In this document: one piece after another, positions 45,909 to 63,032 of the stretch
How the letters are laid out: every line of letters starts with the position of its first letter
Position numbering within the stretch: position 1 is the first letter of the stretch
Origin: a virus
Direction: 5' to 3' (one strand)
Length of the DNA: 63,032 bases
Virus record (IMG/VR): IMGVR_UViG_3300010373_000009
Span: 1-63,032 of that record
Program-made: the position numbers and the translations under genes
The notes under the pieces: model-generated
What the model saw: the letters and a program-made list of their open reading frames with translations, nothing else
Told to the model about the DNA's origin: nothing
Database searches by the model: none

Positions 45909-45913
45909 CAGCA

Positions 45914-46626: not shown

Positions 46627-46628
46627 TC

Positions 46629-47495: not shown

Positions 47496-47796
47496 GCTCG
47501 GCTCTACTACCTATGAGAAATACCGTAATGGCCAGCTTGAAGTTCGGGTCTCGACACACAAAGGCTCCCGCGAAAGCCACGTCTGCTTCCTCTTTGGAAT
47601 CAGGGAAGACATTTCTGTTGAATTGCTCGGGAACGATTCCTCAATTCTTCTCGACGTATGTCCCGAGGTACGAAAGCATCAATTACGGTCCCCTCGTCGT
47701 AAAGTTAAGTTGGTCCGATCGGTACGCGCCGGCGATCCGAGCAATCAGCCCGAAGCGATCCGCAAACCGCCAAGACGCCTATCTCGACGCCGATGA
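47449..47796 (+). CDS. Overlapping frame, possible N-terminal or separate small protein
   Basis: 115 residues (MIIKLRGFKQVHSNPRLGST...), overlapping the end of enzyme B by 47 nt. The first 80 residues look like a natural folded protein (SHVCFLFGIREDISVELLGN), while the last 35 are an Arg/Pro-rich read-through of another frame. It runs in a different frame from the ThyA-fold protein C that starts inside it. Either a short overlapping gene or the true N-terminus of protein C joined by a frameshift near 47640-47700. Confidence 0.45.
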   Translation: MIIKLRGFKQVHSNPRLGSTTYEKYRNGQLEVRVSTHKGSRESHVCFLFGIREDISVELLGNDSSILLDVCPEVRKHQLRSPRRKVKLVRSVRAGDPSNQPEAIRKPPRRLSRRR

Positions 47797-48130
47797 GTTA
47801 GGGCGAGTCTATATGAAGCTCGCGGAGAAGAGGGAAGCCTCGATCCGGTTCGGCGTCGAGAAGAAGGGCCACGGCTATACAGGCAAGCGCGGTGACTTCT
47901 GTCTCGTCGGCGGCGTAGTGCGGCGCAAAGAGCTGACTGTTTTTTACCGGTCTCTCGAATTGATCGGAGGTTTTGGTTACGATTTGACTCTGTTCGACTA
48001 CCTTGCTGATTACTTCGAGACTCGTTGGGAGCACGTTCACATCCTAGCAACCAAGGCATTCGTCTTCGCTCTGAAAGGCAACTCGAATGAGAAACTCTAC
48101 CCCCGACTCCGAGAAATTTTCCATGTCTGA
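47513..48130 (+). CDS. Thymidylate-synthase-fold protein C
   Basis: 205 residues if started at ATG 47513. The first 45 residues look artificial and may not be the native N-terminus. ThyA-like core: C130 (RGDFCLVGG), R146-S147-x-E149 (FYRSLELIGG) and D157 eleven residues after R146, the same Arg-to-Asp spacing as in proteins A and B. The Cys-Arg spacing is 16 instead of 20, a shorter hairpin. The C-terminal HVHILATKAFVFALKGN aligns with the substrate loop. Confidence 0.6.
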   Translation: MRNTVMASLKFGSRHTKAPAKATSASSLESGKTFLLNCSGTIPQFFSTYVPRYESINYGPLVVKLSWSDRYAPAIRAISPKRSANRQDAYLDADELGRVYMKLAEKREASIRFGVEKKGHGYTGKRGDFCLVGGVVRRKELTVFYRSLELIGGFGYDLTLFDYLADYFETRWEHVHILATKAFVFALKGNSNEKLYPRLREIFHV

Positions 48131-48581
48131 GCGGGCTCGCATCACGAGGCACCAGCTTTTGATGGACGTGGCTATCGCGGCTGCGAAACGCTCGACCTGT
48201 CTGCGCCTGCAAGTGGGAGCGGTCATCGGCGTTAACGGTCGCGTTATTTCCGTTGGCTATAACGGCGCACCCTCCGGGGTATCTCATTGCACGCCGGAGA
48301 TATGCGGCCCGGATAAGCCGTGCACACGGGCGGTACATGCCGAGGCGAACGCAATCGCTTGGGCAGCGCGGCAGGGGCTTGCGACCGGCCAGCACTATCT
48401 TTACACGACGGTCTCTCCATGCCTCGATTGCTCAAAGCTAATTCTTAGCGCCGGGATCGCGGTCGTGATATTTAAGGACGAGTATCGGGACCTGACACCG
48501 CTGATCTATCTGGAAAATGCGGGCTGCATAACCTACCGCATCGATGTCAACGGAAATATCTACCGCTCATGCGAAGAGTAG
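48123..48581 (+). CDS. dCMP deaminase (ComEB-like)
   Basis: 152 residues from ATG 48123; an earlier ATG (48087) lies within the previous gene. Zinc motifs: H-A-E-A-N-A-I (near 72-78) and S-P-C-L-D-C (near 97-102), the HAE and PCxxC signature of the cytidine/deoxycytidylate deaminase fold. It turns dCMP to dUMP. It contrasts with enzyme B, which is predicted to use dCMP, so the two would compete for the same pool. Confidence 0.85.
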   Translation: MSERARITRHQLLMDVAIAAAKRSTCLRLQVGAVIGVNGRVISVGYNGAPSGVSHCTPEICGPDKPCTRAVHAEANAIAWAARQGLATGQHYLYTTVSPCLDCSKLILSAGIAVVIFKDEYRDLTPLIYLENAGCITYRIDVNGNIYRSCEE

Positions 48582-51061
48582 CTTGTACCCGCTGCCCGCT
48601 CTACAAGACGGCGAAGTCCGTCTGTGTTCCTCGTGAGCAGGTCGGCGCCGATCCGAAAGTCTTAGTCATAGGCGAGGCTCCGGGCCGCGAGGAGGATCAA
48701 CGTAATCGGCCGTTCGTCGGCCGATCTGGCCGATTGCTGCGCGAGGCATTGCAGAAGGCAGGCATTCACCAGTACATCCTGACGAACCTGGTACGGTGTC
48801 GACCTCCGGATAACCGCGCGCCTACTCGCGAAGAGATCAAAGCCTGTAACGTTCATCTCATGCAGGAGCTGGCCGAACTGCACCCCGAGTTTATTGTTAC
48901 AGCGGGCGGTCCGGCTTCGAAGGCGGTAGCCAAGCAATCGAAAATCACAGAGGCTCATGGGAAACTCGTGCCGTTGCCGGCGGGTGCGCAGGGCTACCCG
49001 ATCCTTCACCCCGCTTACATTCTGCGCGATCCGTCGAAACAGGCTATCTTCGATCACGACCTGGAGCGACTCGCACGGATAATGCGGGGAGAGAAGCGCG
49101 GCGACTTGCCGAAGTGGGAGGTAGTTACCCGAGAGAACTGGTCAGAGTTCCTTGCCGAATTCCGCGCCGCCGAGGCATTCTCTTTCGACCTAGAGACCCC
49201 CGGACTCTTCCCCTATGACCGGAAGGGCTTTATCCGTTGCGTAGGAGTGGGGTTACCGAGCCGTTCTTGGGTAATTCGAGGCGAAATGCCGGGCTCGCCT
49301 TTCTCTGGTAAGCCTGAACTTCTCGCCGCAATGGTCAATCTCCTAATCAGAGAACAGCGGAAACTGGGTAAGATCGGTGTAGCCCAAAACGGCAAATTCG
49401 ACGCGAAGTGGCTTGCGATCTACTGTGGTGACTCGTTCGATTTACACTTCGATACGATGCTCGCTCATTATATCATCGATGAGAATCAACCGCATGATCT
49501 TAAGTATCTCGCTCGCGCTTACCTCGACGCTCCGGAATATGACCTTACTACCAAGGAGAAGCAGGGGTTCACCACCCCAGCGAAGCTCTACGAGTACAAC
49601 GGTTTTGACTGTGGATATACGCTTCGTCTATACACAATCTTTGATCGAGTCTTTAAGCGTGATCCCCGTCTACGTCGGCTCTTTTACCGGCTGATGATGC
49701 CCGCTTCCCGGGCTATGCAATTGATAGAGCTGGAAGGTCTCTATCTGAATATGCCGAAGTACGCCGAGACTGAGGTTCAAGTTACGAAGGAACGTGATGA
49801 AATGCTCGGCAAGCTAAACAAGCTTGCGGCGAAATACGGTCAACCCGTTAACTGGAATGCTCCCGCGCAGGTCGCCAAGCTCTTCTATGAGCGGTTAAAG
49901 CTCAAGTGTACAGTTAGGACCGCGAAAGGCGCTCCGTCTACTGGGGAAGCTGCTCTGGCCGACCTGCGCGGGAAGCATGAGGTAGTAGATCAGCTCATCA
50001 AGTTCCGCGAACTGGAGAAATTCCTTGGCACCTACATCAAAGGATGGAAAGAATACATCGTCGAAAATCGTCTCTTCATGGATTACAAGCTGCATGGGAC
50101 CGTTACAGGACGATATTCTAGCCGCCTACACCAAGTGCCTCGCGACGGGACAATCCGTAATCTTGTGGAGGCACCACCGGGATGGAAATTCGTTCAAGCT
50201 GACTTGTCGCAGGCTGAACTTCGAATCGCCGCCGAATTCTCAAGGGACCTCGAACTGGTAGCATGCTTCCAGCCCGGAGGCGAGGACGTTCACTGGAGGA
50301 CGTTGCTCTTTATGATCGAGAGCGGCCGATCGGATGAGTATACCAAGCCCGCTCTAGAGACTGCCTCGAAACTCCGTTCATTCCGGATAGGCCAGTTATC
50401 GAGTGCGATCGAGATACTACGCAAGGCGGGTCACGATCGGGCAATCGGTCTCTGGAAACCGTGGAAAGAGGCACGGAAGAAAGCGAAGGCGATCAACTTC
50501 GGATTCGTCTTTGGAATGTTCGAGAATAAGTTCATCGAGCAGGCGAAGACGAAATACCAGTGGGACTGCACTTGGGAAGAAGCCCATTCGATGCGTCAAG
50601 CCTACTTTGAGCTCTACCAAGGTGTTCCTCGCTGGCACGAGCGGCAGAAGGCTCTGTTAAAGGTCAACGGTTATGTAACTAACCTCTTCGGCCGCGTGCG
50701 TCGGCTGCCCGGTGTCTTCTCGCAGGACCGCGAGCTACGCGGCGAGGCCGAGCGCCAGGCGATTAACTCTCCGGTCCAGGGGACGATTGGTGATTGGAAG
50801 GCTGCGGCCATGGTGGAAATACACGAGACGATCGATCGTCAAGCGCTTAGGATTGTCGGCGAGCATCACGACGCGCTTCTGATGATCGTGCGCGACGGTG
50901 CCGAGGACGAGGTATTGCCGAAGGTCCGGTCTATCATGCGCCGCCCGAAGCTCCTCGATGACTTTAAGATTCGTATGTCCGTCCCGATGGAATCCGAAAT
51001 CGAGATCGGTCCGTGGGGCGCCGGTAAGAAGTGGGAGCAAAAATGCCTAGCGAAGTCATAA
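48569..51061 (+). CDS. DNA polymerase I with N-terminal uracil-DNA-glycosylase domain
   Basis: 830 residues. Residues 1-165 form a family-4-type uracil-DNA glycosylase: four Cys for an Fe-S cluster (C6, C9, C77, C93), motif GEAPGREED (35-43) and HPAY (147-150). A 3'-5' exonuclease follows: FDLE (206-209), NGKFDAKW (274-281), YNGFDCGY (343-350). The A-family polymerase has motif A QADLSQAELR (543-552, D545), motif B KKAKAINFGFVFG (637-649) and motif C EHHDAL (765-770). An extra segment lies between A and B. A UDG-PolA fusion occurs in SPO1-like phages. Confidence 0.9.
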   Translation: MRRVACTRCPLYKTAKSVCVPREQVGADPKVLVIGEAPGREEDQRNRPFVGRSGRLLREALQKAGIHQYILTNLVRCRPPDNRAPTREEIKACNVHLMQELAELHPEFIVTAGGPASKAVAKQSKITEAHGKLVPLPAGAQGYPILHPAYILRDPSKQAIFDHDLERLARIMRGEKRGDLPKWEVVTRENWSEFLAEFRAAEAFSFDLETPGLFPYDRKGFIRCVGVGLPSRSWVIRGEMPGSPFSGKPELLAAMVNLLIREQRKLGKIGVAQNGKFDAKWLAIYCGDSFDLHFDTMLAHYIIDENQPHDLKYLARAYLDAPEYDLTTKEKQGFTTPAKLYEYNGFDCGYTLRLYTIFDRVFKRDPRLRRLFYRLMMPASRAMQLIELEGLYLNMPKYAETEVQVTKERDEMLGKLNKLAAKYGQPVNWNAPAQVAKLFYERLKLKCTVRTAKGAPSTGEAALADLRGKHEVVDQLIKFRELEKFLGTYIKGWKEYIVENRLFMDYKLHGTVTGRYSSRLHQVPRDGTIRNLVEAPPGWKFVQADLSQAELRIAAEFSRDLELVACFQPGGEDVHWRTLLFMIESGRSDEYTKPALETASKLRSFRIGQLSSAIEILRKAGHDRAIGLWKPWKEARKKAKAINFGFVFGMFENKFIEQAKTKYQWDCTWEEAHSMRQAYFELYQGVPRWHERQKALLKVNGYVTNLFGRVRRLPGVFSQDRELRGEAERQAINSPVQGTIGDWKAAAMVEIHETIDRQALRIVGEHHDALLMIVRDGAEDEVLPKVRSIMRRPKLLDDFKIRMSVPMESEIEIGPWGAGKKWEQKCLAKS

Positions 51062-51219
51062 TCAGATTATCCGGGGATCAAGCAACCGACCTGAAGCTCT
51101 TGTTGCTCTCGGAAGCCAGAACGCCTAAACAGCGTAGCGAGATGAATTTCCACGATCGTCTCGACGAGGGGGTCAGAAACGTCGTACTCAAGCAGATTAA
51201 GGAGCAGCTGAATGGTTAG
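51043..51219 (+). CDS. Small hypothetical protein
   Basis: 58 residues from ATG 51043, with GGGAG 6 nt upstream, overlapping the end of the polymerase gene. Helical and charged (DQATDLKLLLLSEARTPKQR). It ends at the start of the nuclease gene. Function unknown. Confidence 0.55.
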   Translation: MPSEVIIRLSGDQATDLKLLLLSEARTPKQRSEMNFHDRLDEGVRNVVLKQIKEQLNG

Positions 51220-52231
51220 AACTACCCGCTATTCGGAGATCAAGGCTTTTCGGCGCTGCCCGAAATTGCATGAGTACGCTTATATCCAGCGCATTCAGAA
51301 GGTAAGGCCGGCGGCGGCTCCGCATCGCGGCACCATCCTGCATGAAATGCTCGACGCGCGAGCACGGCGCATGATGGGGGATAAGACTTCCGTGCCTTTG
51401 ATGATTCTCTCCGGTTACGAGAAGAAACACCGCAGTCTCTTCGCCGAGGAACGCGAACTGTACGGAGAGAATTTCATACCGGATATCCGGCGCGTATTCG
51501 AAGGCTACGAACGGACTTGGGCACAGGACGGCTGGGAGTATGAGTATTCCGAGCAGGAGATCGAGACCGATCTTGGCGACGCGAAGGACAAGGAGCTTCG
51601 GGGAGTTGTTTACCACGGTACTCTCGATAAGATCGTCGTTACGCGAGACGACCGGCGCTGGCTCGTCGATCATAAGACTCACAAATCGATTCCGACCGAG
51701 GAACAGCGTTTTCAGGACTACCAGATGCTGCTTTATGTCTGGGCCTGGAATCGTGAGAACCCCGAGGAACCTATCGATGGCATCATCTGGGATTACCTGC
51801 GCACGAAAGCCCCGACGATTCCCGAGACTCTGGTAAGAGGGGGGTTGACGCAACGCGCGAACCTTGATACAGATTATTACACATATATGACCGAGCTGAA
51901 ACGCTTAAAGCTCGACCCGAAGCCTTACTCAGAGTTCTTAGCGGGACTGCGGCAGCGATCAGCGGACAAATTCTTCCTGCGTGTGCCTCTGCCGAAGCCG
52001 AGCAAGGCAATGACCACCACCGTCGTTGAAGACTTCCGCGCGACGACGACCGCAATGCTGCAATGCTCGCGCCCGACTCGCACAATGACGAAGGACTGTT
52101 CGTGGTGCGAGTTCTATCGGCTCTGCACGGCGGAGCTGCGAGGTCTAGACTCGAATTACATCCTAAAGTCCGAATATGAGGAACGGAAAGATGAAGAAGA
52201 CGTTGAAGAAGACGAACCCGAAACCCGCTAG
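51212..52231 (+). CDS. RecB/Cas4-like PD-(D/E)XK exonuclease with Fe-S cysteines
   Basis: 339 residues. Cys16 (FRRCPKLHEY) and three C-terminal Cys (C-S-W-C-E-F-Y-R-L-C, about 298-307) match the split Fe-S cluster site of Cas4/AddB-like nucleases. Catalytic core: GTILHEML near 40-47, GTLDKIVV and LVDHKTHKS (D-x-K). It ends in a very acidic tail. Likely works in recombination or DNA processing with the next two genes. Confidence 0.8.
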   Translation: MVRTTRYSEIKAFRRCPKLHEYAYIQRIQKVRPAAAPHRGTILHEMLDARARRMMGDKTSVPLMILSGYEKKHRSLFAEERELYGENFIPDIRRVFEGYERTWAQDGWEYEYSEQEIETDLGDAKDKELRGVVYHGTLDKIVVTRDDRRWLVDHKTHKSIPTEEQRFQDYQMLLYVWAWNRENPEEPIDGIIWDYLRTKAPTIPETLVRGGLTQRANLDTDYYTYMTELKRLKLDPKPYSEFLAGLRQRSADKFFLRVPLPKPSKAMTTTVVEDFRATTTAMLQCSRPTRTMTKDCSWCEFYRLCTAELRGLDSNYILKSEYEERKDEEDVEEDEPETR

Positions 52232-53000
52232 CTCGATTCTAACTCGTGCTAAGCCGATAGAGGATATCGACTCACACGTCGTAATGCTTTGCTACGGTCA
52301 GGCGGGGAAAGGCAAGACAGTATTCGCCTGCACGTTCCCGAAGCCTTTGCTACTGATCGATATTAAGGAGAAGGGGTTTGAATCCGTTATCGATGTCCCC
52401 GGCGTCGATTTGTTGGAGGTTAACGATTGGGACGAGGTAGAGGACGTTTATTGGGAACTAGAGAAAGGAACGAAATACCAGTCCATTGTTATAGATCAGC
52501 TAACAGCGATGCAGGCTCTTGCCATTGGGAAGATCCGCAAGGATAATGATATGGACCCCGACGAGGTCATCTCCCAGAGGAGCTGGGGCAGAGTCTCCGG
52601 GTTGATGGTTACTTGGATCGATAACTTCCGGAACCTCGTCGGGAAATACCATATCTGCTTTAATGCCCATGAGAAACTAACAGAGCCGCAAGAGGAAGAC
52701 GACGACCGGATAGCCCCCTCGGTTGGCAGCAATCTAATGAAGTCCGTGGCTTCGTTCGTTAACGGGGCCGTCTCAGTTATCGGTAATGCATATGTGCGGG
52801 AGGTTAAGCTAGAAGATAAATCAACCCAAATCCAGTTTTGCATGCGGGTAGGTCCCCATGCGTACTATGCAGCGAAGATCAGACGGCCGGTATCGGCGGG
52901 ACCTGCGCCGGGGGTTATCGTAAACCCGACATTCGAGAAGGTTCTAAAGGTATCGAAAGGTGAGAGCCTTTCGGTGAAGAAAACAGTCAAGCGTAAGTAG
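52191..53000 (+). CDS. Sak4-like RecA-fold ATPase
   Basis: 269 residues from ATG 52191, with GAGGAA upstream. Walker A GQAGKGKT (36-43), a Walker-B-like strand SIVIDQLT (after about 96), and the conserved TWIDNFRNLVG/ NAHEKLTE region typical of phage Sak4 (AAA_24) single-strand annealing ATPases. Sak4 proteins work with a phage SSB; the SSB-like gene follows directly. Confidence 0.8.
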   Translation: MKKTLKKTNPKPASSILTRAKPIEDIDSHVVMLCYGQAGKGKTVFACTFPKPLLLIDIKEKGFESVIDVPGVDLLEVNDWDEVEDVYWELEKGTKYQSIVIDQLTAMQALAIGKIRKDNDMDPDEVISQRSWGRVSGLMVTWIDNFRNLVGKYHICFNAHEKLTEPQEEDDDRIAPSVGSNLMKSVASFVNGAVSVIGNAYVREVKLEDKSTQIQFCMRVGPHAYYAAKIRRPVSAGPAPGVIVNPTFEKVLKVSKGESLSVKKTVKRK

Positions 53001-53011
53001 GAGTTAATTTA

Positions 53012-53752
53012 ATGGCATCGAAGGCAAAGCGGTCGCGGAAGTCACGTGCAGTCAGTATTGACTTCGAGGGCGTCGAGTCCGGTGGTTTTAATCTCGCGGA
53101 CGGAACGTATGTTGCGGAAATTAGCTCCGCCGAGGAGAAGGAATCATCGGAGGGCAATCCGATGATCCTTCTGAAGTGGAAGGTCAAGGGCAAGAACGTC
53201 ACGCTCTTCGACAATCTCTCGCTGCTGCCCCAGGCTCTCTGGCGTCTGAAGACGATGTTAGAGGCAATCGGCGTCGAGGTTCCGGACTCTGCGATGGAGG
53301 TAGACCTCGATGATCTCGAGGGTCAGAGCTGCAAGCTAGAAGTGACCAACGAGACCTACGAGGGGAAGGAGCGGCCGAAGGTCACCAACTACCTCTCCCT
53401 AGAGGATAAGGGCGGTGATGACGGCGAGGAGGAGGAGGAAGAAGAAGCCGAGGAGGAAGAGGAGGCTGAGGAGGAGGAGGACAGCAAGCCCGCCAAGAAG
53501 CCCGGCAAGAAAACTGCCGCCGCGAAGAAGTCGTCCAAGTCGAAGGACGATGAAGATGAGGAAGAGGAGGAGACCGAAGAGGAGGATGAGGACGATGAGC
53601 GCCTGAAGGCCGGTGCGAAGGTCAAGTTCAAGGATGAGAACAACAAGGTGATCAAGGGCAAGATCACCGCTATCGAGGATGATACGGCGACCGTAAAGGA
53701 CACGGACGGCGACGAGTGGGAACTCGACCTCTCGGATCTCGAAGCTCTCTAG
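53012..53752 (+). CDS. DUF669-like single-strand DNA-binding-type protein with acidic tail
   Basis: 246 residues. N-terminal 130 residues (DGTYVAEISSAEEKESSEGN, then WRLKTMLEAIGVEVP) match the DUF669 phage family next to Sak4-type recombinases. A long acidic/basic low-complexity stretch follows (EEEEEEEAEEEEEAEEEE, about 137-205). The last 50 residues (GAKVKFKDENNKVIKGKITA) form a small beta barrel (SH3/KOW-like). Acidic tails are common in SSBs such as T7 gp2.5. Confidence 0.75.
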   Translation: MASKAKRSRKSRAVSIDFEGVESGGFNLADGTYVAEISSAEEKESSEGNPMILLKWKVKGKNVTLFDNLSLLPQALWRLKTMLEAIGVEVPDSAMEVDLDDLEGQSCKLEVTNETYEGKERPKVTNYLSLEDKGGDDGEEEEEEEAEEEEEAEEEEDSKPAKKPGKKTAAAKKSSKSKDDEDEEEEETEEEDEDDERLKAGAKVKFKDENNKVIKGKITAIEDDTATVKDTDGDEWELDLSDLEAL

Positions 53753-53753
53753 T

Positions 53754-55115
53754 ATGCTCCTGACCGACCTCCGAAACTACCAGGAATCAGCGGTCAAGGC
53801 TGCCGTCCCCATCCTTACGGGTGGGGGCGGTTTCGCCTTCTTCCCCGACCCTCGGACCGGCAAGACGGTAACTAGTCTGGCTGTTGTCGATCATTTTAGA
53901 CCATCCTGGTTAGTAGTCGTCTGCCCGAAGGCTGCCATTGCGGAGTGGCAGAGGCAGATACCGCAGCACCTACAGATCGACTGGAAGATGGAGGTGACGA
54001 TAGTTAACTATGAGCAGCTAGTTAACTGGAGAAAGAAGTGGTATAAGTTCATGCGCAACGGTCCAGATGATATCTTTATCATCTGCGACGAGTCGCATTA
54101 TATTAAGCGGCGGGGGACGTCACGTTCGCGAGTCGTTCGAAAGATGGGGCACTATGCGAAATATCGGCTTGCCCTAACAGGTACGCCGATCGCTCAGGGG
54201 ATTATCGATGCTTGGGCGCAATTTGACTTTCTCGATCCTGGGATTTTCGGCAAGTACGATAGTACGGTCGAGCGGCAGGGCAACAAGATCATTCGAGTTA
54301 TCGAGGAAGGTTTCGATGAACACTATATTCGATGGGGAGGTTTTAAGAAGCACGAGATCATCGGATACCGGAACGAGGATGAGTTTTACGAGAAGTTCCA
54401 TAAATACTCGTACCGAATCACGCTCCGGGAAGCCCAGCGAGAGGAGGGGGGGACATCCGTTAAGCTCCGTCGGCGACTGATCGACATAGAGCTATCGAGT
54501 AAGACTCGTTCCGTCTATAACGAACTGATGGAAGAATTGCAGGTCGAGGTAGACCGCAAGCGCGTAAAGGCTAAGAACGTCCTCGCGCTGGTTACGAAAC
54601 TTCAACAGATTACGGGTGGTTACGTCCAGAGCGAAGATGGGCCGGTAGCGATCGGGCATGAGAAGACCGAGGCACTTTACAAAGTCGTGCGGTCACTCCC
54701 GAGTCGCACGCGCTTTATCGTGATCTGTAGATTTATCTGGGAGATTGAGAACGTCGCCTATATGCTCCGTCGTCTGAACTACCGGGTAGCGATCGTCCGA
54801 GGAGGCCAGCCGTATGATGGTAAGTTCCAAGAGGATTGTCTCGTACTGCAAGTACAGTCCGGTATTGCGGTTGATATGGCCGCAGCCGATGCGGCGATAC
54901 TTTATTCAACAGACTATTCGTACCTGAACTTTACCCAAGCCCGGTTCCGGATACTCTCCTACGGGAAACGGGAGGCCCAATACTTTTTCCTGCTTGCCAA
55001 CAATACCGTCGATGGGCTAATCTATCAAGCGATCACCAGAAAGCAGAATCTAGCCAAGCTAGTCTGCGATACTTACCGCAACAGAAAAGAGGTACACCGT
55101 GGGAACCGAAGATAG
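53754..55115 (+). CDS. SNF2-like DEAD/DEAH helicase
   Basis: 453 residues. Q-motif-like NYQESAV (8-14), Walker A PDPRTGKT (31-38), DESH box (CDESHYIK, about 117-124), motif III LALTGTP (about 141-147), and C-terminal motifs (FIVICRFIWEIE, then motif VI-like LNFTQARFRI). SNF2-type helicases of phages support replication or recombination. It begins 2 nt after the previous stop. Confidence 0.85.
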   Translation: MLLTDLRNYQESAVKAAVPILTGGGGFAFFPDPRTGKTVTSLAVVDHFRPSWLVVVCPKAAIAEWQRQIPQHLQIDWKMEVTIVNYEQLVNWRKKWYKFMRNGPDDIFIICDESHYIKRRGTSRSRVVRKMGHYAKYRLALTGTPIAQGIIDAWAQFDFLDPGIFGKYDSTVERQGNKIIRVIEEGFDEHYIRWGGFKKHEIIGYRNEDEFYEKFHKYSYRITLREAQREEGGTSVKLRRRLIDIELSSKTRSVYNELMEELQVEVDRKRVKAKNVLALVTKLQQITGGYVQSEDGPVAIGHEKTEALYKVVRSLPSRTRFIVICRFIWEIENVAYMLRRLNYRVAIVRGGQPYDGKFQEDCLVLQVQSGIAVDMAAADAAILYSTDYSYLNFTQARFRILSYGKREAQYFFLLANNTVDGLIYQAITRKQNLAKLVCDTYRNRKEVHRGNRR

Positions 55116-55422
55116 CACTCAGGTCGAAGAGTCTCTGAAGGAACCGAAGGCCCCGAAGAAGAAGGCCGTCAAGAAGGCAATGAAGAAAGTCGCCAAGAAG
55201 GCGGAGAAGAAAGGGAATGGAAATGGCGCGAAGCGTCAGGCGGTCAAGGAGGAGGGAATCGTCTCCATCGTAGATCTCGCTGGCGAAGCCGGTATCACCG
55301 CTCAGGCCGTGCGGATCAAGCTGCGCGGATCGGACATCGAGCGCGGCGAAGGTCGCTGGAAATTCGAGGAGGGCTCGAAGCGCCTGAAGGAAGCGCGTAA
55401 GCTTCTCGGCATCGGGGCCTGA
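55099..55422 (+). CDS. Lys-rich protein with C-terminal winged-helix-like module
   Basis: 107 residues from GTG 55099, with GAGG 6 nt upstream. N-terminal 50 residues are Lys/Ala-rich (KKKAVKKAMKKVAKKAEKKG). C-terminal module VDLAGEAGITAQAVRIKLRG then GRWKFEEGSKRLKEARKLL is the same small domain as in the products at 35828 and 56744. Probably a DNA-binding, histone-like protein. Confidence 0.7.
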   Translation: MGTEDSTQVEESLKEPKAPKKKAVKKAMKKVAKKAEKKGNGNGAKRQAVKEEGIVSIVDLAGEAGITAQAVRIKLRGSDIERGEGRWKFEEGSKRLKEARKLLGIGA

Positions 55423-55426
55423 TTCA

Positions 55427-55939
55427 ATGAGAGGCCGGCTCTGTCAGGGCTCTTCCGGTAAAGGAGTCTGCGTAGTAGCTCAGTTGGTAGAGCGGGGGAA
55501 CGAGAACCTTACCAGTTCACACTCCCCGGGTCGCGGGTTCAAGTCCCGCCACGCCAGAGCCGGCCTTTCTCCCTTACTCCTCGCAATCTGCGCACTCGCG
55601 CAGGCTCAAACTCCTACCCAGCTACCGCTGACTTGGTCGGCTCCGGCGATCGAGTTCACGAATGGAACTCCGATCCCGGGCGGTAGACTCTACGGTTACG
55701 AGATTGACTGGTTTGGTGCAACGTCGAACCCGTGGTATTCGTATGACTCCCTGTTCGTAGATCCGGCCGCGACTTCGGCGAGCATCCCCGTTATCTGCGG
55801 TAGCTATAGCATTACGATTAGCTCCGTCTTCTTCGACGGGAGCGGGGATCTCCTTATTAGTCAGCCCGCTGGCCCAATAACCTATAACACGGGCGTTGCT
55901 TGCCCTCCGTCGTTCTGGCCTACGCTGACCGTAAAATGA
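55427..55939 (+). CDS. Signal-peptide Fn3-like protein, 5' end interrupted by a tRNA-like element
   Basis: 170 residues if read from ATG 55427. Residues 3-40 are a translation of the tRNA-like region (VAQLVER, GRGFKSRHA are typical of translated tRNA genes). After it comes SPLLLAICALAQAQ, a signal peptide core without its own start, then a beta domain that is a paralogue of the product at 26200-26580 (TWSAPAIEFTNGTPIPGG; ends LTVK). If 55444-55554 (111 nt, 37 codons) is removed, the frame gives MRGRLCRAGLSPLLLAICAL, a normal signal peptide. Expression as drawn is uncertain. Confidence 0.55.
   Translation: MRGRLCQGSSGKGVCVVAQLVERGNENLTSSHSPGRGFKSRHARAGLSPLLLAICALAQAQTPTQLPLTWSAPAIEFTNGTPIPGGRLYGYEIDWFGATSNPWYSYDSLFVDPAATSASIPVICGSYSITISSVFFDGSGDLLISQPAGPITYNTGVACPPSFWPTLTVK
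55429..55569 (+). repeat. Inverted repeat closing the tRNA-like element
   Basis: Left arm 55429-55443 (GAGAGGCCGGCTCTG) pairs with right arm 55555-55569 (CAGAGCCGGCCTTTC): 15 bp with one G-U pair, including 11 perfect bp. The loop of 111 nt holds almost all of the tRNA-like core. The arms also encode codons of the signal-peptide gene. Confidence 0.75.
55469..55556 (+). tRNA. tRNA-like element with enlarged anticodon arm
   Basis: An 88-nt region with canonical D arm (GCTC-AGTTGGTA-GAGC, 55478-55493) and T arm (GCGGG-TTCAAGT-CCCGC, 55535-55550 region). The 5-bp stem GGGGA/TCCCC (55495-55499 and 55522-55526) closes a loop of about 23 nt instead of 7, inside which GAAC/GTTC could pair around CTTACCA (anticodon would read UAC, Val). 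The acceptor stem only works with one bulge on each strand. It may be a decayed, mimic or intron-like tRNA. Confidence 0.5.
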
Positions 55940-56385
55940 GCGAACAACAGCTCTGGAACTATCTCTCCCGGCTCTTGCCGGTAGATGGCCAGTATACACG
56001 GATCGAATCTCACGAAACGGCGACCGGCTTCCCGGACGTGCATTACATGCTCGCTGGGGTAGAGGGTACGATCGAGCTAAAAGACTCGCGGCATCCAACC
56101 GCTACTTACCCATTCGCCGAGGGCGGTCTGCGCGATGCGCAAAAGAACTGGCTCCGCGATTACCTCTACTCTGGGGGGCGTCCCCTCGTCTGCGCGCGGA
56201 TCGGAGACCCGATTTACTTTATCGAGGGTCGAAACGCTCTGAGAATAAACGGCTTTAAGCAAGAAGAATTTTCACTTTTCGCGACTCTGGTACTTTTGCC
56301 TAGGCAGCGTGCTCGATCGTGTGAAAAATTGCACGATTTGCTGGTGAAAAAGCTTACTTTTGTGAACCGAGCTGAATTAGACTAG
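55936..56385 (+). CDS. VRR-NUC-type PD-(D/E)XK nuclease
   Basis: 149 residues from ATG 55936, overlapping the previous TGA. Motif order E-S-H-E-T-A-T-G-F-P-D (20-30), GTIELKDSR with E-x-K (42-50), and Q-K-N-W-L-R-D (65-71) is the VRR-NUC arrangement (GxPD, ExK, Q). Such nucleases resolve branched DNA (Holliday-junction-type). It follows the replication block. Confidence 0.7.
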   Translation: MSEQQLWNYLSRLLPVDGQYTRIESHETATGFPDVHYMLAGVEGTIELKDSRHPTATYPFAEGGLRDAQKNWLRDYLYSGGRPLVCARIGDPIYFIEGRNALRINGFKQEEFSLFATLVLLPRQRARSCEKLHDLLVKKLTFVNRAELD

Positions 56386-56743
56386 CCTTCGTTCGCAGCA
56401 AACCTGCGCGGGTCGCACTGCGATGGGGGAGGAGTAGGTATTCATTCCGTCGATCCCCCCCGCTGCGAATATCTCCCGCTCCGGCGTCAAACGGAGCGTG
56501 GGAAGGGTAAGCGGCGTCTCCGCCTCCACCACCGAGTGAGAAGACGCACTAACCCACTTTATCGCCCGAGCCGGGGCGTTAGCTAAGTTCCGGCCACCGT
56601 GCGAGCCGTGAAAGCTCGCCGTCTTGGGTAGGCCATCGGGCTGACGTTAAATGCGCGGTGCCCCTGGCCGGCGGCAGGTCCCGACCGCCGGTGCATTTTT
56701 CTGAGGTTTGAGTTCTTTATCGTGCGAGGTTTCAGGGGGGTTT
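56386..56743 (+). ncRNA. Structured non-coding stretch, candidate RNA
   Basis: About 360 nt without a gene, full of complementary segments: TTCGCAGC (56392-56399) with GCTGCGAA (56462-56469), GCTCCG/CGGAGC (56478-56497, extended by CCC/GGG), GCGTCT (56514-56519) with AGACGC (56542-56547), GCGAGC/GCTCGC (56601-56619), and a terminator-like hairpin at 56649-56700. The number of stems exceeds what a simple leader needs. Could be a small RNA or a 5' leader for the 56744 gene. Confidence 0.5.
56649..56700 (+). terminator. Two-tier terminator-like hairpin
   Basis: Outer arms AAATGC (56649-56654) and GCATTT (56693-56698), inner arms CCGGCGG (56668-56674) and CCGCCGG (56685-56691), then a run of five T. 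It would end the transcript before the 56744 gene. Confidence 0.6.
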
Positions 56744-57322
56744 ATGGAGCAATCCGTCCGTAATATTTATGTTGAGTCTGGCGCTGGAGAAGAGTCCTAT
56801 AAGGGCTATAAACCAGCGCTCTGCTTCCGAGGTCGCAAGCATGTGCATTGCGTTATCAACGACGAGACCCGGGTCAGGGTCATTACGATCGAGATTAAAG
56901 ACTACGACAGGGCGAGTCTCGTTCCTTTCCACGGTTCCGAGTATCCTATCGAACGTTTCAAGAGAACTATGCTATCTGTGGGCGCCCGCAAGGGGATTAC
57001 TGCCCGCGCCGCCCTGCTCCTGCGCCTGCCAAACGGTGCCGAGGAGCCGGAAGAGCTACCCCCGGACGACCCGGTAAACCCCGCGCCGGCCTTAGCCTCC
57101 GCTCCGGAGCCGGCCAAGGCGCGGCGGACCCTTACCCTACCGCCCCCCGACCCGGCGAAAGCCGCCAAGGCGGTCGGTGCTGCCGCCGATCGGGGGACCC
57201 TAGTCGCTCGCATTGCTGCCGAGCTAAGGATCACCCCCCAGCAGCTTAGGGTTAAGCTTCGGGCCAATGGGTTACGCGCTCCCTATACCGATGAGCAGAA
57301 GCTTCGGACTGCTCTGAAATGA
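56744..57322 (+). CDS. Hypothetical protein with C-terminal winged-helix-like module
   Basis: 192 residues from ATG 56744, with a G-run 3 nt upstream. The first 90 residues are folded, beta-rich (RVRVITIEIKDYDRASLVPF). A Pro/Ala-rich linker follows. The last 45 residues (ARIAAELRITPQQLRVKLRA) are the third copy of the module found in the products at 35828 and 55099. Perhaps a regulatory DNA-binding protein. Confidence 0.6.
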   Translation: MEQSVRNIYVESGAGEESYKGYKPALCFRGRKHVHCVINDETRVRVITIEIKDYDRASLVPFHGSEYPIERFKRTMLSVGARKGITARAALLLRLPNGAEEPEELPPDDPVNPAPALASAPEPAKARRTLTLPPPDPAKAAKAVGAAADRGTLVARIAAELRITPQQLRVKLRANGLRAPYTDEQKLRTALK

Positions 57323-57507
57323 CCAACTTTGAAGCGGCTCTCGCAACGGTAGAGCGCTGGCGTTGTCCCGAGTGCCGAGGTCGAGGCAAGAAGGATGATG
57401 GGGAACCTGGTGACTCGTACTACCATGAGTGGAACTGCGATACCTGTCGGGGTACTGGTATACTGAATGCCTCTGTAATAACCGTAACCGTAGAAGCGGG
57501 GGCGTAA
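57319..57507 (+). CDS. DnaJ-type CxxCxGxG zinc protein
   Basis: 62 residues; ATG 57319 overlaps the previous TGA. Two motifs, C-P-E-C-R-G-R-G (16-23) and C-D-T-C-R-G-T-G (40-47), form one zinc site of the DnaJ cysteine-rich type. A separate J-domain protein is encoded at 59764, so this phage has both halves of a DnaJ-like protein on different genes. Confidence 0.75.
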   Translation: MTNFEAALATVERWRCPECRGRGKKDDGEPGDSYYHEWNCDTCRGTGILNASVITVTVEAGA

Positions 57508-57562
57508 TCATTTCTTGAGGACTCTTCGCCTACGGATCGGGCATAACTGTTGAGGTGTTAAT

Positions 57563-58210
57563 ATGGGTTTGGAATTAAAGAAGGGTGATCAGGTAATCTT
57601 CCTGGTTGATCGTTCCGGGTCGATGGCGACCTCGGACTGCAATGGGGATACTCGTTACAACTACGTCCGAGAGACCATCAAGGCTTTCGTGCGTGGGGCG
57701 GCGAAGTACGATCCGGATGGAGTCTCGATTCACTTCTTCAACAATCGAGTCGAGAGCCACGAGGACGTAGCGACTCCGGAGGCTGTCGACCAGCTGATCG
57801 ATACGCATGGCACGGGCGGCGGTACGATGACGGACCTCGCTCTTGCCGCCGCATGGAAGGAGCATCGCCGGAAAGGAAGCTCCGCGAGCTTCGTGGTTTG
57901 CTTTACCGATGGTGACCCGTCCGATCGGGATGCGGTCGAGAAGCAGATCATCAATATCACGAACGCGATGCAATCACCGGAGGAATTCCGCATCATGTTC
58001 CTGACCGTCGGGCAGCGCTCGCCGGAACTCGAAGCATGGTTGGAGCATATCGACTCGTCCCTGACCGGAGCGAAGTACGATATCATCGGCCACGAGGCAG
58101 CCGAGAAGGTGGACTTCGAGGGGGCCATCGCCGATCTGATCGGAAGCTCGACGACGACGGCGGAGGCCGCAGCCGGCGATACGAAAGGCAAATCAACCAG
58201 CCACATCTGA
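57563..58210 (+). CDS. Von Willebrand factor A domain protein (TerY-like)
   Basis: 215 residues. Complete MIDAS metal site: D-R-S-G-S (16-20), T88/T90 (GGGTMTD) and D116 (CFTDGDPSD). VWA proteins with this site bind partners through Mg2+. In bacterial Ter systems, VWA proteins (TerY) occur with TerC and TerD-type proteins; TerC is the next gene here. No TerD was found. Its target in the host or virion is unknown. Confidence 0.75.
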   Translation: MGLELKKGDQVIFLVDRSGSMATSDCNGDTRYNYVRETIKAFVRGAAKYDPDGVSIHFFNNRVESHEDVATPEAVDQLIDTHGTGGGTMTDLALAAAWKEHRRKGSSASFVVCFTDGDPSDRDAVEKQIINITNAMQSPEEFRIMFLTVGQRSPELEAWLEHIDSSLTGAKYDIIGHEAAEKVDFEGAIADLIGSSTTTAEAAAGDTKGKSTSHI

Positions 58211-58220
58211 CCGTGCCGAC

Positions 58221-58250
58221 CCGGGGGTGGCCTTCGCCCCCGGTCTTTTT
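58221..58250 (+). terminator. Rho-independent terminator between VWA and TerC
   Basis: Arms CCGGGGG (58221-58227) and CCCCCGG (58237-58243) with a 9-nt loop, then TCTTTTT. It could reduce TerC expression from the VWA promoter or mark a separate unit. Confidence 0.75.
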
Positions 58251-58269
58251 CAACGGGGGAATCTAAGTC

Positions 58270-58860
58270 ATGCTACTCTTTCCACTTATTCTGCTCGGGT
58301 CTGTGATTTTCCTCGACATCTGTCTATCGGGGGATAATGCCGTCGTCGTAGCGATGGCAGCGAACGCTCTGCCGAAGGAGAGTCGTGATAACGCCATCTT
58401 CCTCGGAATGTCTCTTGCTTGTCTCCTGCGAATCGTTCTCGCGATTGCGGCTACCGCGCTTCTACGCTCTCATATCCTCGCCTTCGTCGGGGGTCTCGCC
58501 CTGCTCTGGGTAGCCTATAGGCTTGGGAAGGACCTCCTAAATAAGGCCGAGGACGAGCCCGGCAAGGTCAAGCCCTGCGGTAGCCTCGGCGGCGCGCTAG
58601 CGACGATTGTCATTGCCGATGCGTCGATGTCTCTCGATAACGTGCTAGCCGTTGCGGCTCTCGCCCGAAACCATCCGTTTATTATGATCCTCGGGATCGC
58701 GGCCTCGATCGCAATGCTGGCCTTCGTCGCACGCAAGATTGCTACACTCCTCGATCGTTACCCCTGGATTAACTGGGTAGGACTAGTCCTGATAGTTTGG
58801 GTAGCCCTCGATATGATCTTCGGGACCTACGATTCCACGCTGATGATGATACGGTCATGA
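58270..58860 (+). CDS. TerC-family integral membrane protein
   Basis: 196 residues, six or seven transmembrane segments. Signature acidic residues: SGDNAVVVA (20-28) and DASMSLDNVLAVA (about 117-129), the paired D-N motifs of TerC/YjbE-type proteins, which are linked to metal ion export and tellurium resistance. GGGGGAA precedes ATG 58270. In a phage it may protect the infected cell's membrane or metal balance; paired with the VWA gene. Confidence 0.8.
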   Translation: MLLFPLILLGSVIFLDICLSGDNAVVVAMAANALPKESRDNAIFLGMSLACLLRIVLAIAATALLRSHILAFVGGLALLWVAYRLGKDLLNKAEDEPGKVKPCGSLGGALATIVIADASMSLDNVLAVAALARNHPFIMILGIAASIAMLAFVARKIATLLDRYPWINWVGLVLIVWVALDMIFGTYDSTLMMIRS

Positions 58861-58894
58861 GGATTAGCCCCGGACAGTTCATGGGCTTCTAGCT

Positions 58895-58996
58895 ATGGTA
58901 ACCTTCGGCTGCCAGATCGTTACTCCTACCGTCCTAGAGGGCTTCGGGCTTACCTTGATAGCCGATGCATTTCTGATCGCTATAGTGGTTAAGTAA
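58895..58996 (+). CDS. 33-residue membrane peptide
   Basis: ATG 58895 to TAA 58994-58996, just before the next ATG. Hydrophobic C-half (LTLIADAFLIAIVVK), so one membrane span. A further 11-codon frame overlaps the TerC stop before it. Small size limits confidence. Confidence 0.35.
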   Translation: MVTFGCQIVTPTVLEGFGLTLIADAFLIAIVVK

Positions 58997-58997
58997 T

Positions 58998-59294
58998 ATG
59001 AGCGCCGAAGACTGGATAGGGGACAGCCACTGGACGGACGAGGACGAAGCCTATGCGGCTGAGTATTTCCGCACCCCTAAACCGAGGAAACTGAAAATGC
59101 ACCGCTACAAGATTCTCGTCGTCATTAGCACGACGGCGGGAGGACTTACTAGCCAGCTCCTGCACTACATCTCCTATGACGACGCCGAGACCGCTTACGA
59201 GGCTCTGAATAAGAGCGAGAAACCTGTCGGTTTGACCGTTAGCTACATCCGACTGTACGAGCGCGAAGAGCGCGGCTGGAGAGAGAAGAGATGA
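58998..59294 (+). CDS. Hypothetical protein
   Basis: 98 residues, with an acidic N-terminus (DSHWTDEDEAYAAEYF) and beta-rich middle (YKILVVISTTAGGLTSQLLH). Overlaps the next gene by 4 nt. Not recognised. Confidence 0.55.
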   Translation: MSAEDWIGDSHWTDEDEAYAAEYFRTPKPRKLKMHRYKILVVISTTAGGLTSQLLHYISYDDAETAYEALNKSEKPVGLTVSYIRLYEREERGWREKR

Positions 59295-59530
59295 CCTCCC
59301 GTTCGAAGATAGTCTCTGTTTTCGTTCCCTTCGAAGTCTTACCAGAAGGGGGAGAGAAAAAGCGCGATGATCTTCCACGGTTCTTGACTTCTACAGAGAT
59401 CAGGAACTATATCATAGCCAATCGTAACGAACTCGCGAACTGGTTAATCCAATGGAGGGAGCATACGGAGAAGGAGCTGATCGATGAATATTTCGCTGGG
59501 GTGGGTACTCCCGGCTTTCGGAGGCAATAA
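59291..59530 (+). CDS. Hypothetical protein
   Basis: 79 residues (MTSRSKIVSVFVPFEVLP...). Helical C-half with EHTEKELIDEYFAGVG. Function unknown. Confidence 0.5.
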   Translation: MTSRSKIVSVFVPFEVLPEGGEKKRDDLPRFLTSTEIRNYIIANRNELANWLIQWREHTEKELIDEYFAGVGTPGFRRQ

Positions 59531-59532
59531 CT

Positions 59533-59712
59533 ATGGTAGTCTGGGTCGTCTACGGTTTGGTATTCGGATTCCTGCTCTCGGTCATTGCGATCGTCTGCCG
59601 TGCGCAGCGCCGGCAGCGCCCGAACTACTGGCCTACGCGGGAGACTCGTTCGAGCTTCGCGAGTAGTGATCGCGTCCCGGACTGGAGAGTCCACACCCAG
59701 AAGAAAAGCTGA
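59533..59712 (+). CDS. 59-residue membrane protein
   Basis: ATG 59533 to TGA 59710-59712. One N-terminal transmembrane helix (VVWVVYGLVFGFLLSVIAIV), then a basic, Trp-containing cytoplasmic tail. Likely a real small membrane protein; no family recognised. Confidence 0.55.
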   Translation: MVVWVVYGLVFGFLLSVIAIVCRAQRRQRPNYWPTRETRSSFASSDRVPDWRVHTQKKS

Positions 59713-59903
59713 TGTGCGGTCTCGGCCTGCCGTGCGGTAAACCTAGCTGCGAGTGGTATTGTAATGTCGGATATCAGTCTGGATCGAGTAATAGAGGCAC
59801 TGGAGACGTTCCTCCACGCGAATATAGATGTACCTCTCGTCCACCTGAACCGAATCGAAGCGGCGTTCCTACTCGACCACCTGCGCCGCTTACAGCTCTT
59901 TGA
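59712..59903 (+). CDS. Possible overlapping Cys-rich small frame
   Basis: 63 codons starting at ATG 59712, which overlaps the previous TGA. The first residues are Cys-rich (MCGLGLPCGKPSCEWYC), but from 59764 on it overlaps the J-domain gene in another frame, so most of it may not be translated. The first part might be a short peptide. Confidence 0.25.
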   Translation: MCGLGLPCGKPSCEWYCNVGYQSGSSNRGTGDVPPREYRCTSRPPEPNRSGVPTRPPAPLTAL

Positions 59904-60561
59904 CGAGCGGGAGACTCGCTTCGCGCAGAGCCGGCACGGCGCGAGCGTTACCGACTGTATAGGGTGGCTATACCTTCAGAAGCGGCACGCCGAGACCGCT
60001 CGCGATACTGCGAGCAATATGGAAGCTCGCATGTTCCAAGCCGTTATCGATCACCTCCAGGAGTTGCATGGCCGACGAGAGAGCGCCGATCGAGCAGCCG
60101 AGGCTAAGCGCCGGGAACAGGAGGAAGCCGCCCGGCGCGCGGAGGCCGAACGGAAAGAGCGCCGGAAGAAGTATGAGGAGGCGAAGTCGAAAACTCAGCA
60201 GGAGTGGGAGGGATTCTTCCGCGACCAATTCGGGTCGGCCTACGCCGACGAGATGTACCGGGCCTTCTATGGTGCAGGCTTTAACTTCAGTGATTTCGCC
60301 ACTGGTCGTCGATCGGGGAGAACTAATAGCTCGGAGGAGTTCCGCTGGAAGCAGGACTCGAAAACTCAAACCCCTCCCCCGCCTATGGGCAAGCTGACGT
60401 GGTACGAGATTCTAGGGGTTAGTGCAAACGCGACGAAGGACCAGATCAGAAGGGCTTATCGTAAGCTCGCCGCGCTACACCACCCGGACCGGCCCGGTGG
60501 CTCGCATGAGAAGATGCGCGATATCAACGCCGCCCGCGACGAGGGTCTAGCCGGCGTGTAG
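59764..60561 (+). CDS. J-domain protein with C-terminal DnaJ domain
   Basis: 265 residues. N-terminal 110 residues are a helical domain without known match; 110-150 is a charged coiled coil. The J domain is at the C-terminus: LTWYEILGVSANATKDQIRR (211-230), HPD at 240-242, and a following helix. J proteins stimulate Hsp70 ATPase. Together with the GroES-like gene and the DnaJ-type zinc protein, it suggests that this phage controls host chaperones. Confidence 0.8.
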   Translation: MSDISLDRVIEALETFLHANIDVPLVHLNRIEAAFLLDHLRRLQLFDERETRFAQSRHGASVTDCIGWLYLQKRHAETARDTASNMEARMFQAVIDHLQELHGRRESADRAAEAKRREQEEAARRAEAERKERRKKYEEAKSKTQQEWEGFFRDQFGSAYADEMYRAFYGAGFNFSDFATGRRSGRTNSSEEFRWKQDSKTQTPPPPMGKLTWYEILGVSANATKDQIRRAYRKLAALHHPDRPGGSHEKMRDINAARDEGLAGV

Positions 60562-61213
60562 AGCCGCCCCGCGCTTGGCCGCTTACCAGAGGCATTACCG
60601 TCCGGTCGGTATCAGCATTGACTAGCCCGGTCAGGGTCTGCGATGCTTGCGCGATCCCCTGCCCCCTTCGGAGCTGTTGTGCCGCCTGCTGGACGAGAGG
60701 ATGCTGCATAGCGGTGCGCGAGGAGGTAAGCGCACCGGCCGCGCTCGAAGCATCCCGATTCGCCAGGTGTGTGATTGCGTCCTTGATTGCCGCGATCGCA
60801 TCAGCCCCTAGTCGGACCTCGCCACCGACATCAAATTTCATGCGATAGTTCGGAGCCTTCGCGAGCTTCGCCTGCATCTTCGGTAGCTTCTCCATCGGCC
60901 CCTTTAAGTGGGCGAAGACGTTGCGTGTTACTCCGGCCATCGGAATGTACGGCATCTTCATATGCGTCATATACCCGATGCTTGGCGTATGCATCATCGC
61001 GCGGCCGGCATGCGCCGGGGAGCCGGTAAACTGCTCCAAAGCCGATTCGATCTCGCCACCTTCGGCGTGCATGTACTTACCCTCTGCCTTATCAGCTTCG
61101 TGGAACTCGTGCGCTACGGCGCGCGACGGGAGCTGGTGATTCGGATGCGACGGATGCCATCCGTGATCGATCGCGGACATCAGCATCGCCTGCTTCTTCG
61201 TGGTTGATGGCAT
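60524..61213 (-). CDS. Hypothetical virion-associated protein, converging with the J-domain gene
   Basis: 229 residues (MPSTTKKQAMLMSAIDHGWH...). Its end overlaps the J-domain gene end by 38 nt, so transcripts converge. It contains the short phrases KYMHAEGGEIES and MKFDVGGEV that resemble the Gly-Gly phrases in other late proteins, and a basic helical C-terminus. The M-P-S-T-T-K-K-Q start is common to a family of phage proteins next to structural genes. Confidence 0.65.
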   Translation of the reverse strand: MPSTTKKQAMLMSAIDHGWHPSHPNHQLPSRAVAHEFHEADKAEGKYMHAEGGEIESALEQFTGSPAHAGRAMMHTPSIGYMTHMKMPYIPMAGVTRNVFAHLKGPMEKLPKMQAKLAKAPNYRMKFDVGGEVRLGADAIAAIKDAITHLANRDASSAAGALTSSRTAMQHPLVQQAAQQLRRGQGIAQASQTLTGLVNADTDRTVMPLVSGQARGGSTRRLDPRRGRR

Positions 61214-61220
61214 AGATCAC

Positions 61221-63032
61221 CTAATGGGATTCGGCTTCCTCGATTACCGGTTCAGAATCGGAGGGCTCCGAGAGCCAGGCCAGGGGTGCCTTCGTCGTCG
61301 GCTGCGATCCGGCCCCCGCCCACCCGGCGAACTGATCGAGAGCTTTGCGAGCCAGGGTACCCTCCTCGGCGAGCCGCGAAGCTGCCATCAGGGGACCGAC
61401 CTGGCCGGCGAGGTCTTCGGCATCTTCCGCGAGGCCCTGTGGCTCGCCGATCCCCGTGTCTTTCTTGACCGCCTGATTAAGCCTACCGAGTCGCGCACTC
61501 GCGTTCCTCGACCACTGGGGATCGAGAGCGTGAATAAGGTCGTGATCGTTCCCGTTCGGCCCGGGCGTGATCTTCATCAGCAATTCTTCGAGCCCGGCCA
61601 TCGAGTCCGGGATCGAGAGCGCTTCGTCTACGATCCCCGGAGGAGTCGCCCCGCTATGAGCGATACCGCCTAAGAAAACGGGGTTTCCGTTCTTATCCGT
61701 TCCATAGAGCTGTTGGGCGCCACGTACCGCAATCCGGGCCTCTGCATCTGGAGATATCTTGATGAGGTCGAGCCCCGGTAGCGGGATGTGATTCCCGTAG
61801 TAGCCGAGACGCTTCGTGTTCTCGATTGCCTGCTTTAGCCAAGCGAGCGCGGAGTGGGTTGATCCTCCGCCCGCGAATGCCTGACGCTTCGAGAGGAAGC
61901 CGGGAGTCAGCGGGTTCCGGATCGGCGCCGGCTGCGCCGTTGCGGCCTTATACAGCGGGTCCTCGGTCGGCTGCTGCAACGGTGACCGCGGTGCATCCGG
62001 ATGACGAGCACCGGCCTCGGCTGCCTGGGCCGCATGTTCGTCTGCAATCTTGTTTAGGTACTTATCTATCAGCTCGCCGATATCCTCGACGACGCCGCCC
62101 GCGCCGTAGGCCGGCATCTGCATTGCGGGCTGATAGAGACGAGCCATCCGATCGAGAGTCATCTCTTGAAGCATTTCAGGGGGCATCTCTTGAAACATCA
62201 TCATCTCGCCTTCCGGTATACCCGGTATCTCCGGCTGTGGAGCGAGGAGGTTCTGTTGCTGCTCCGAGTCGTCGACACTTCCACCATCATCGAAACGTAT
62301 TTCGGCCTCTCCGCCTCTCTTAAAAAAAGGAATGCCCGTTGACTTAATCTTCTCTGCCAGCTCCGGTGTAATCTCCAGTGCGGGGAAGGTCTTCGTTTCC
62401 TGGCCCGTAACGTCGTGAGAGTGTAAACCTTGCCAGATAGAGTGAGCTTGATCTAAGTGCTCTGATAACCTCTGTGCTTCCGTATTCCACTCCCGAGGCG
62501 ACATGTAGTCATTCGGATTCATCGCCGAAATTTCATCCCCGTACTCATCTACATACGGTTCATCTCCGTGCAAACTATGTTCATGGGCTATAGAGTCGTA
62601 ATTATTTAGCGTATCCAGTGCCTTTTGTGCATTAGTAAGATGATGTCGTAGAGAAGCCGTTTCTGCATTAGGACCTCCCATCTGGGTAATCATCCTTTCA
62701 AAAGCACTTCCGTGCCATTCCCCTCCCATCTGATAATGGGAAAGTAGCTCAGAGGGCGTATCATAGCCTAGCTCTTCGAGAAGGGGTATGCGTGGAGCTT
62801 GCACCTCCTCTCGTGAGGCTATCTGCAACGGCAAATCCTTAATGTCTGTCCCGTACATACGAGCGAGCTTGCGGAGTGCCGAAGGGTAGACATTCCCATA
62901 GACATGCTGCATACCGGCATCGCGGCCCTCTTCCGTCCCGTACCTGTCTATCTGGGATTGAGGATCGATCAACGCGAGATAACGGTCACCCTGCTGGATA
63001 GAGTTAAGAAGTTGTTTCTTTAGTTCCAGCAA
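61221..63032 (-). CDS. Large virion-associated protein, C-terminal part (starts at 1137 across the join)
   Basis: Residues about 339-941 of the protein that begins at 1137. The apparent TTG start at 63032 is only the window edge. Stop TAG at 61221. The C-terminal half is Pro/Met/Gln-rich in the middle (MQEMPPEMLQEM-like stretches) and carries the short Gly-Gly phrases FFKRGGEAEIRFDDGGSV and AFAGGGST that recur in other late proteins of this phage. It also has a His/Asp-rich stretch (NDHDLIHALDP). No catalytic domain was recognised. Probably an internal or tail-associated protein; function unknown. Confidence 0.85.
   Translation of the reverse strand: MLELKKQLLNSIQQGDRYLALIDPQSQIDRYGTEEGRDAGMQHVYGNVYPSALRKLARMYGTDIKDLPLQIASREEVQAPRIPLLEELGYDTPSELLSHYQMGGEWHGSAFERMITQMGGPNAETASLRHHLTNAQKALDTLNNYDSIAHEHSLHGDEPYVDEYGDEISAMNPNDYMSPREWNTEAQRLSEHLDQAHSIWQGLHSHDVTGQETKTFPALEITPELAEKIKSTGIPFFKRGGEAEIRFDDGGSVDDSEQQQNLLAPQPEIPGIPEGEMMMFQEMPPEMLQEMTLDRMARLYQPAMQMPAYGAGGVVEDIGELIDKYLNKIADEHAAQAAEAGARHPDAPRSPLQQPTEDPLYKAATAQPAPIRNPLTPGFLSKRQAFAGGGSTHSALAWLKQAIENTKRLGYYGNHIPLPGLDLIKISPDAEARIAVRGAQQLYGTDKNGNPVFLGGIAHSGATPPGIVDEALSIPDSMAGLEELLMKITPGPNGNDHDLIHALDPQWSRNASARLGRLNQAVKKDTGIGEPQGLAEDAEDLAGQVGPLMAASRLAEEGTLARKALDQFAGWAGAGSQPTTKAPLAWLSEPSDSEPVIEEAESH
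62910..63032. repeat. Terminal redundancy, right copy
   Basis: Exact duplicate of 1-123. Joining the two copies gives a circle of about 62,909 bp and restores an uninterrupted minus-strand reading frame. Confidence 0.95.

Follow-up and report, generated by a model that had tools for sequence, protein, structure and literature searches.

Do genes for a VWA protein, a TerC protein, a zinc-motif protein, and a J-domain protein that lie close together in a phage genome form a single functional unit? This question is raised by a virus record of 63,032 bases, all of which was analyzed here (the window). The first-pass annotation had grouped the four genes into one cluster, and all four were confirmed as real genes at the end of a plus-strand block (Table 1), which meets minus-strand genes convergently at 60524-60561. 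However, the foursome is not conserved in relatives; what is conserved is the VWA-TerC pair.

An exact direct repeat of 123 bp at the two ends of the record (1-123 and 62910-63032) suggests that the whole genome is present, so the missing ter genes do not merely lie beyond the end of the record. The record, which matches PHROG families for terminase, portal, primase, DNA polymerase, thymidylate synthase, exonuclease, a Sak4-like protein, and helicase, is probably a complete tailed-phage genome, and no near-identical DNA was found among public phages. The VWA-TerC pair sits among accessory genes where the replication block ends. TerC is separated from the J-domain gene by three small open reading frames overlooked in the first pass, for which profile searches gave no firm family and which have no relatives near other VWA-TerC pairs. 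The J-domain gene lies five genes downstream of the zinc-motif gene, which itself overlaps an upstream 204-aa gene by 4 bases (ATGA, 57319-57322), a junction that had also gone unnoticed.

Elsewhere on the plus strand, a tRNA-like gene at 55469-55556, inside the open reading frame at 55427-55939, scored 35.5 bits against an Rfam gathering threshold of 29. It has extra bases around the model's anticodon arm, and ARAGORN reported no tRNA at this position; it may be a tRNA with an intron or a degenerate one.

Table 1. Features of the VWA-TerC locus in the window
Feature	Position	Strand	Family or basis
Zinc-motif protein, 62 aa	57319-57507	+	phrog_6060, two CxxCxGxG
VWA protein, 215 aa	57563-58210	+	PF00092
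VWA-TerC gap: terminator-like GC hairpin and TerC ribosome-binding region	58211-58269	+	
TerC, YjbE subfamily, 196-aa membrane protein	58270-58860	+	PF03741, TIGR03717
Small gene, 98 aa	58998-59294	+	ORF
Small gene, 79 aa	59291-59530	+	ORF
Small gene, 59 aa	59533-59712	+	ORF
J-domain protein, 265 aa	59764-60561	+	PF00226

The zinc-motif and J-domain proteins

Since the zinc-motif and J-domain proteins had been read as the two halves of a split DnaJ, we compared each of them with known families. The zinc-motif protein proved to be a member of phrog_6060 (E = 2.8e-16, residues 1 to 60 aligning to positions 1 to 60 of the 61-position profile), a family that is widespread in T5-like phages, where it is labeled "anti-termination Q-like." Its relatives were found in 287 phage records, mostly of Salmonella and Escherichia phages. 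The match to the T5-like proteins is whole length, and the window copy carries two CxxCxGxG motifs, but it is only 42 to 45% identical to them and has different neighbors. In EPS7, the phrog_6060 protein sits near NAD-salvage genes, and the record contains no J domain (PF00226). The window protein also falls below the cutoff for the DnaJ zinc domain PF00684 (22.8 versus 32.7 bits).

The J-domain protein is a clear match to PF00226 (E = 1.2e-12, 48.1 bits versus a cutoff of 27.8). Its J domain is C-terminal, spanning residues 213 to 257 with the HPD motif at 240 to 242, and its N-terminal half is charged; neither other DnaJ domains nor a G/F region was seen. With a J domain, an HPD motif, and no other DnaJ domains, the protein is of class III. 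The C-terminal placement is shared with phrog_9210, and no close full-length relative was found, including in a scan of viral contigs. Rki of phage RB43, a J-domain protein that interacts with DnaK (PMC3486835), is likewise a phage class III protein with an HPD motif, although its J domain is N-terminal.

These observations bear directly on the proposal that the zinc-motif and J-domain proteins act as a joint co-chaperone with VWA and TerC as its clients. Both motifs do occur within 3.3 kb of each other. However, a class A DnaJ, whether whole or split, is not what the two genes encode, as there are two zinc motifs rather than the four of DnaJ and the J protein contributes a J domain alone. Moreover, phrog_6060 occurs in phages without a J domain, such as EPS7, and neither PF00226 nor phrog_6060 was found in nine other records that carry a VWA-TerC pair (see below). 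We therefore rejected the split DnaJ, which is extremely improbable; the zinc-motif gene and the J-domain gene are each accessory genes in their own right and flank the VWA-TerC module by happenstance.

One of the nine records, L009, encodes a 334-aa protein directly 3' of TerC (5633-6637, plus strand) with two CxxCxGxG motifs and a DUF6011 domain; this record has no phrog_6060 match.

The VWA and TerC proteins

The VWA protein matches PF00092 with an E value of 1.1e-10 and has a complete MIDAS (DRSGS at 16 to 20, T88, and TDG at 115 to 117), of which D16, S18, S20, T88, and D116 are invariant among the 13 sequences aligned. Its AF2 model shows a VWA fold (pLDDT, 86), and hydropathy analysis gave no transmembrane segment. 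The protein is not of the TerF type, as it scored 26.7 bits against the PF10138 cutoff of 29.4 and as VWAs of the window type fall outside the TerF-type clade in our tree (support, 100/100). Among the window-type VWAs are also some from cyanobacterial plasmids and one from Ktedonobacter.

TerC was identified by PF03741 (E = 7.4e-44, 150 bits versus a cutoff of 27.8) and belongs to the YjbE subfamily (TIGR03717, 180.5 bits versus a cutoff of 134.8). Conserved acidic motifs are present in its two repeats (D16 and D22-N23; D117 and D123-N124), and the AF2 model has two three-helix repeats, each with a helix broken near the conserved D/N motif. No solved relative was found by either sequence or fold, and TerC-like proteins of known phages are up to 46% identical. 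In B. subtilis, TerC proteins show activity in Mn2+ efflux and supply exported enzymes with their metal (PMC10550928). The window TerC resembles MeeF, MeeY, YjbE, and Alx in matching both PF03741 and TIGR03717 and in its conserved acidic residues in two repeats; it differs from them in being phage borne and in having a VWA partner. It also differs in its upstream region, as no yybP-ykoY Mn2+ riboswitch was detected upstream of TerC by Rfam in the window or at 12 loci.

Recurrence of the VWA-TerC pair

Scans of viral contigs with the single TerC, VWA, and J-domain proteins gave no matches, and alignments were needed to find TerC and VWA relatives. A TerC profile scan of viral contigs yielded 68 TerC loci. 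A VWA gene adjoined TerC or lay one gene away at 22 of these loci (7 with a window-type VWA and 15 with a TerF-type VWA), and the remaining 46, including many near-identical loci, had no VWA. When the search was started from VWA instead, TerC was present at four of seven loci, two of which were already known; the new ones were L076 and L080. In all, a window-type VWA adjoins TerC in nine other records, and the gene order varies: VWA-TerC in the window, L006, L073, L076, and L080; VWA-TerB-TerC in L008, L009, and L035; TerB-VWA-TerC in L039; and TerC-VWA in L027. TerB (PF05099) was thus found in four of these records but not in the window, TerD (PF02342) was found neither in the window nor in the other nine, and TelA was absent near the pair.

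By terminase, the carriers are mostly unrelated. Only the L006 phage shares its terminase with the window (43 to 52% identity), and its VWA and TerC are 49% and 57% identical to those of the window. In L006, no J domain, phrog_6060 protein, or counterpart of the window's DNA polymerase was found. L027, L035, and L080 are among the fragmentary records, in which absences are weak evidence. A single clade for the TerCs that adjoin window-type VWAs was rejected in a comparison with phage and bacterial TerCs (p-AU, 4e-11), a test that omitted the very long branch of L080 and still included other long branches. For example, the L039 VWA is 51% identical to that of the window, while its TerC is only 36% identical and lies on a different branch. 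Since the VWA-linked TerCs are polyphyletic, the pairing seems to be the product of repeated origins or swaps, and a functional link would best explain why one VWA subfamily pairs again and again with different TerCs.

Could chance nevertheless have brought the two genes together in an accessory region that is dense in genes? Each is found singly elsewhere, and window-type VWAs lack an adjacent TerC in L078, L079, and cyanobacterial plasmids. Against this, the adjacency is common to ten records, mostly with unrelated terminases, with varied gene orders and TerCs that belong to different branches, and TerF-type VWAs likewise adjoin TerC in Pseudomonas and Acinetobacter phages; chance adjacency is accordingly very improbable. 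Thus, the gene-neighborhood comparison suggested in the first pass leaves the four-gene grouping as chance and retains the pair, and it is very probable that VWA-TerC is a two-gene module of which the zinc-motif and J-domain neighbors are independent. A bacterial origin of the pair was also considered and set aside: a genome scan gave only three weak VWA matches, and no VWA accompanies TerC in the bacterial plasmid annotations examined.

Several features near related VWA genes were observed along the way. A match to the type-P5 twister ribozyme (43.7 bits versus a gathering threshold of 37.6) lies at 5606-5673 on the plus strand of L076, ~300 bases upstream of VWA. Judged by eye, nicotinamide phosphoribosyltransferase-like proteins are encoded near window-type VWAs in L006 (2378-3859), L009 (2-1579), and L078 (3507-4961), and a NUDIX-like gene adjoins VWA in L009.

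Ter genes are found widely on mobile elements. The first-pass remark that the VWA-TerC pair recalls Ter systems is borne out by its recurrence across unrelated phages, whereas the remark that such genes are uncommon in phages holds only in part: jumbo phages are known to encode TerD, TerC, TerF, TelA, and J-domain proteins, and their abbreviated Ter operons have been published and proposed to act against superinfecting phages (PMC7824862). The Pseudomonas phage Kremar has the order TelA-TerF-TerC-TerD, PPSC2 has the same core genes and order, and an Acinetobacter phage has TerD, a small gene, VWA, and TerC. In a Rhizobium phage, no VWA adjoins TerC and TerB is ~18 kb away. Like the abbreviated operons of Kremar and the Caulobacter jumbo phages (PMC7824862), the window has a VWA directly before TerC in a phage accessory region. 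In contrast to them, it lacks TerD and TerB and, in the vicinity of the pair, TelA; its VWA lies outside the TerF-type clade and below the PF10138 cutoff, and its TerC is on another branch. Judged from these sequence comparisons, the module is a stripped-down relative of the jumbo-phage operons with a VWA from a non-TerF branch. The TerD-free arrangement VWA-(TerB)-TerC and its recurrent assembly are apparently new, as no description was found in the literature searched.

Possible functions of the module

Between VWA and TerC, the first pass had overlooked a terminator-like GC hairpin (58221-58243) with a 10-bp stem followed by TCTTTTT, which has the most pairs of any terminator-like site within 44000-63032. 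Seven more loci (L008, L009, L035, L039, L073, L076, and L080) likewise have a strong hairpin after the VWA stop codon. Together, these eight hairpins were stronger than those of 68 other same-strand gaps from these and other phage loci, by both energy (P = 1e-4, Mann-Whitney) and composition-corrected z score (P = 4e-4, Mann-Whitney); as the comparison was made after the fact and with heuristic gene calls, it is no more than suggestive. The hairpin could set TerC expression below that of VWA or simply end the transcript, and given this intervening terminator-like element, VWA and TerC may not be co-expressed in the window. It is not required, because the VWA and TerC genes of L006 overlap.

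The explanation that we favor overall, and hold to be fairly probable, is a minimal, horizontally reassorting, ter-like VWA-TerC module of phages. One point against it is that VWA domains have many partners. How the module might work is a more tentative matter, and we can picture a VWA-controlled divalent-cation membrane protein as a plausible, though by no means firm, possibility. TerC in the host membrane would move or deliver Mn2+ or a similar divalent ion, and the cytosolic VWA, via its MIDAS-bound metal, would dock on TerC or the inner membrane and gate or scaffold TerC, with the hairpin holding TerC output under VWA output. The likely payoff would be a membrane and metal state in which the infected cell is shielded or a second phage meets an obstacle; tellurite resistance as such would not be the benefit.

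Tellurite or metal resistance conferred on the host by an auxiliary metabolic gene is very unlikely. Phage TerC genes have been labeled tellurite resistance auxiliary metabolic genes, but the same study doubts that incomplete sets give resistance (PMC11256456). Furthermore, TerC proteins are not known as tellurite transporters, there being no evidence for such transport (PMC10550928), and the window has a YjbE-type TerC without TerB and TerD.

Superinfection exclusion, in which a reduced Ter system would alter the membrane and bar competing phage DNA or other threats, is by analogy a possible explanation, if a rather doubtful one. It is consistent with the proposal that Ter systems serve in phage competition (PMC7824862), with the position of the module among the accessory genes that end the replication block, and with its recurrence in unrelated phages. 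The lack of TerD in the genome and of TelA near the pair argues against it, and no PRTases were noticed.

Going beyond the favored reading of a minimal ter-like module, we venture, with much reserve, that VWA-(TerB)-TerC may be a self-sufficient phage device that does without TerD, TelA, and the Ter system's nucleotide-signal arm, that has been built repeatedly from different TerC lineages, and in which the post-VWA hairpin sets the cytosolic VWA regulator above the membrane transporter. A two-gene form that phages have remade would be the smallest natural system for testing VWA control of a TerC metal protein, and it would also allow testing of whether the pair shields cells during infection or stops other phages.
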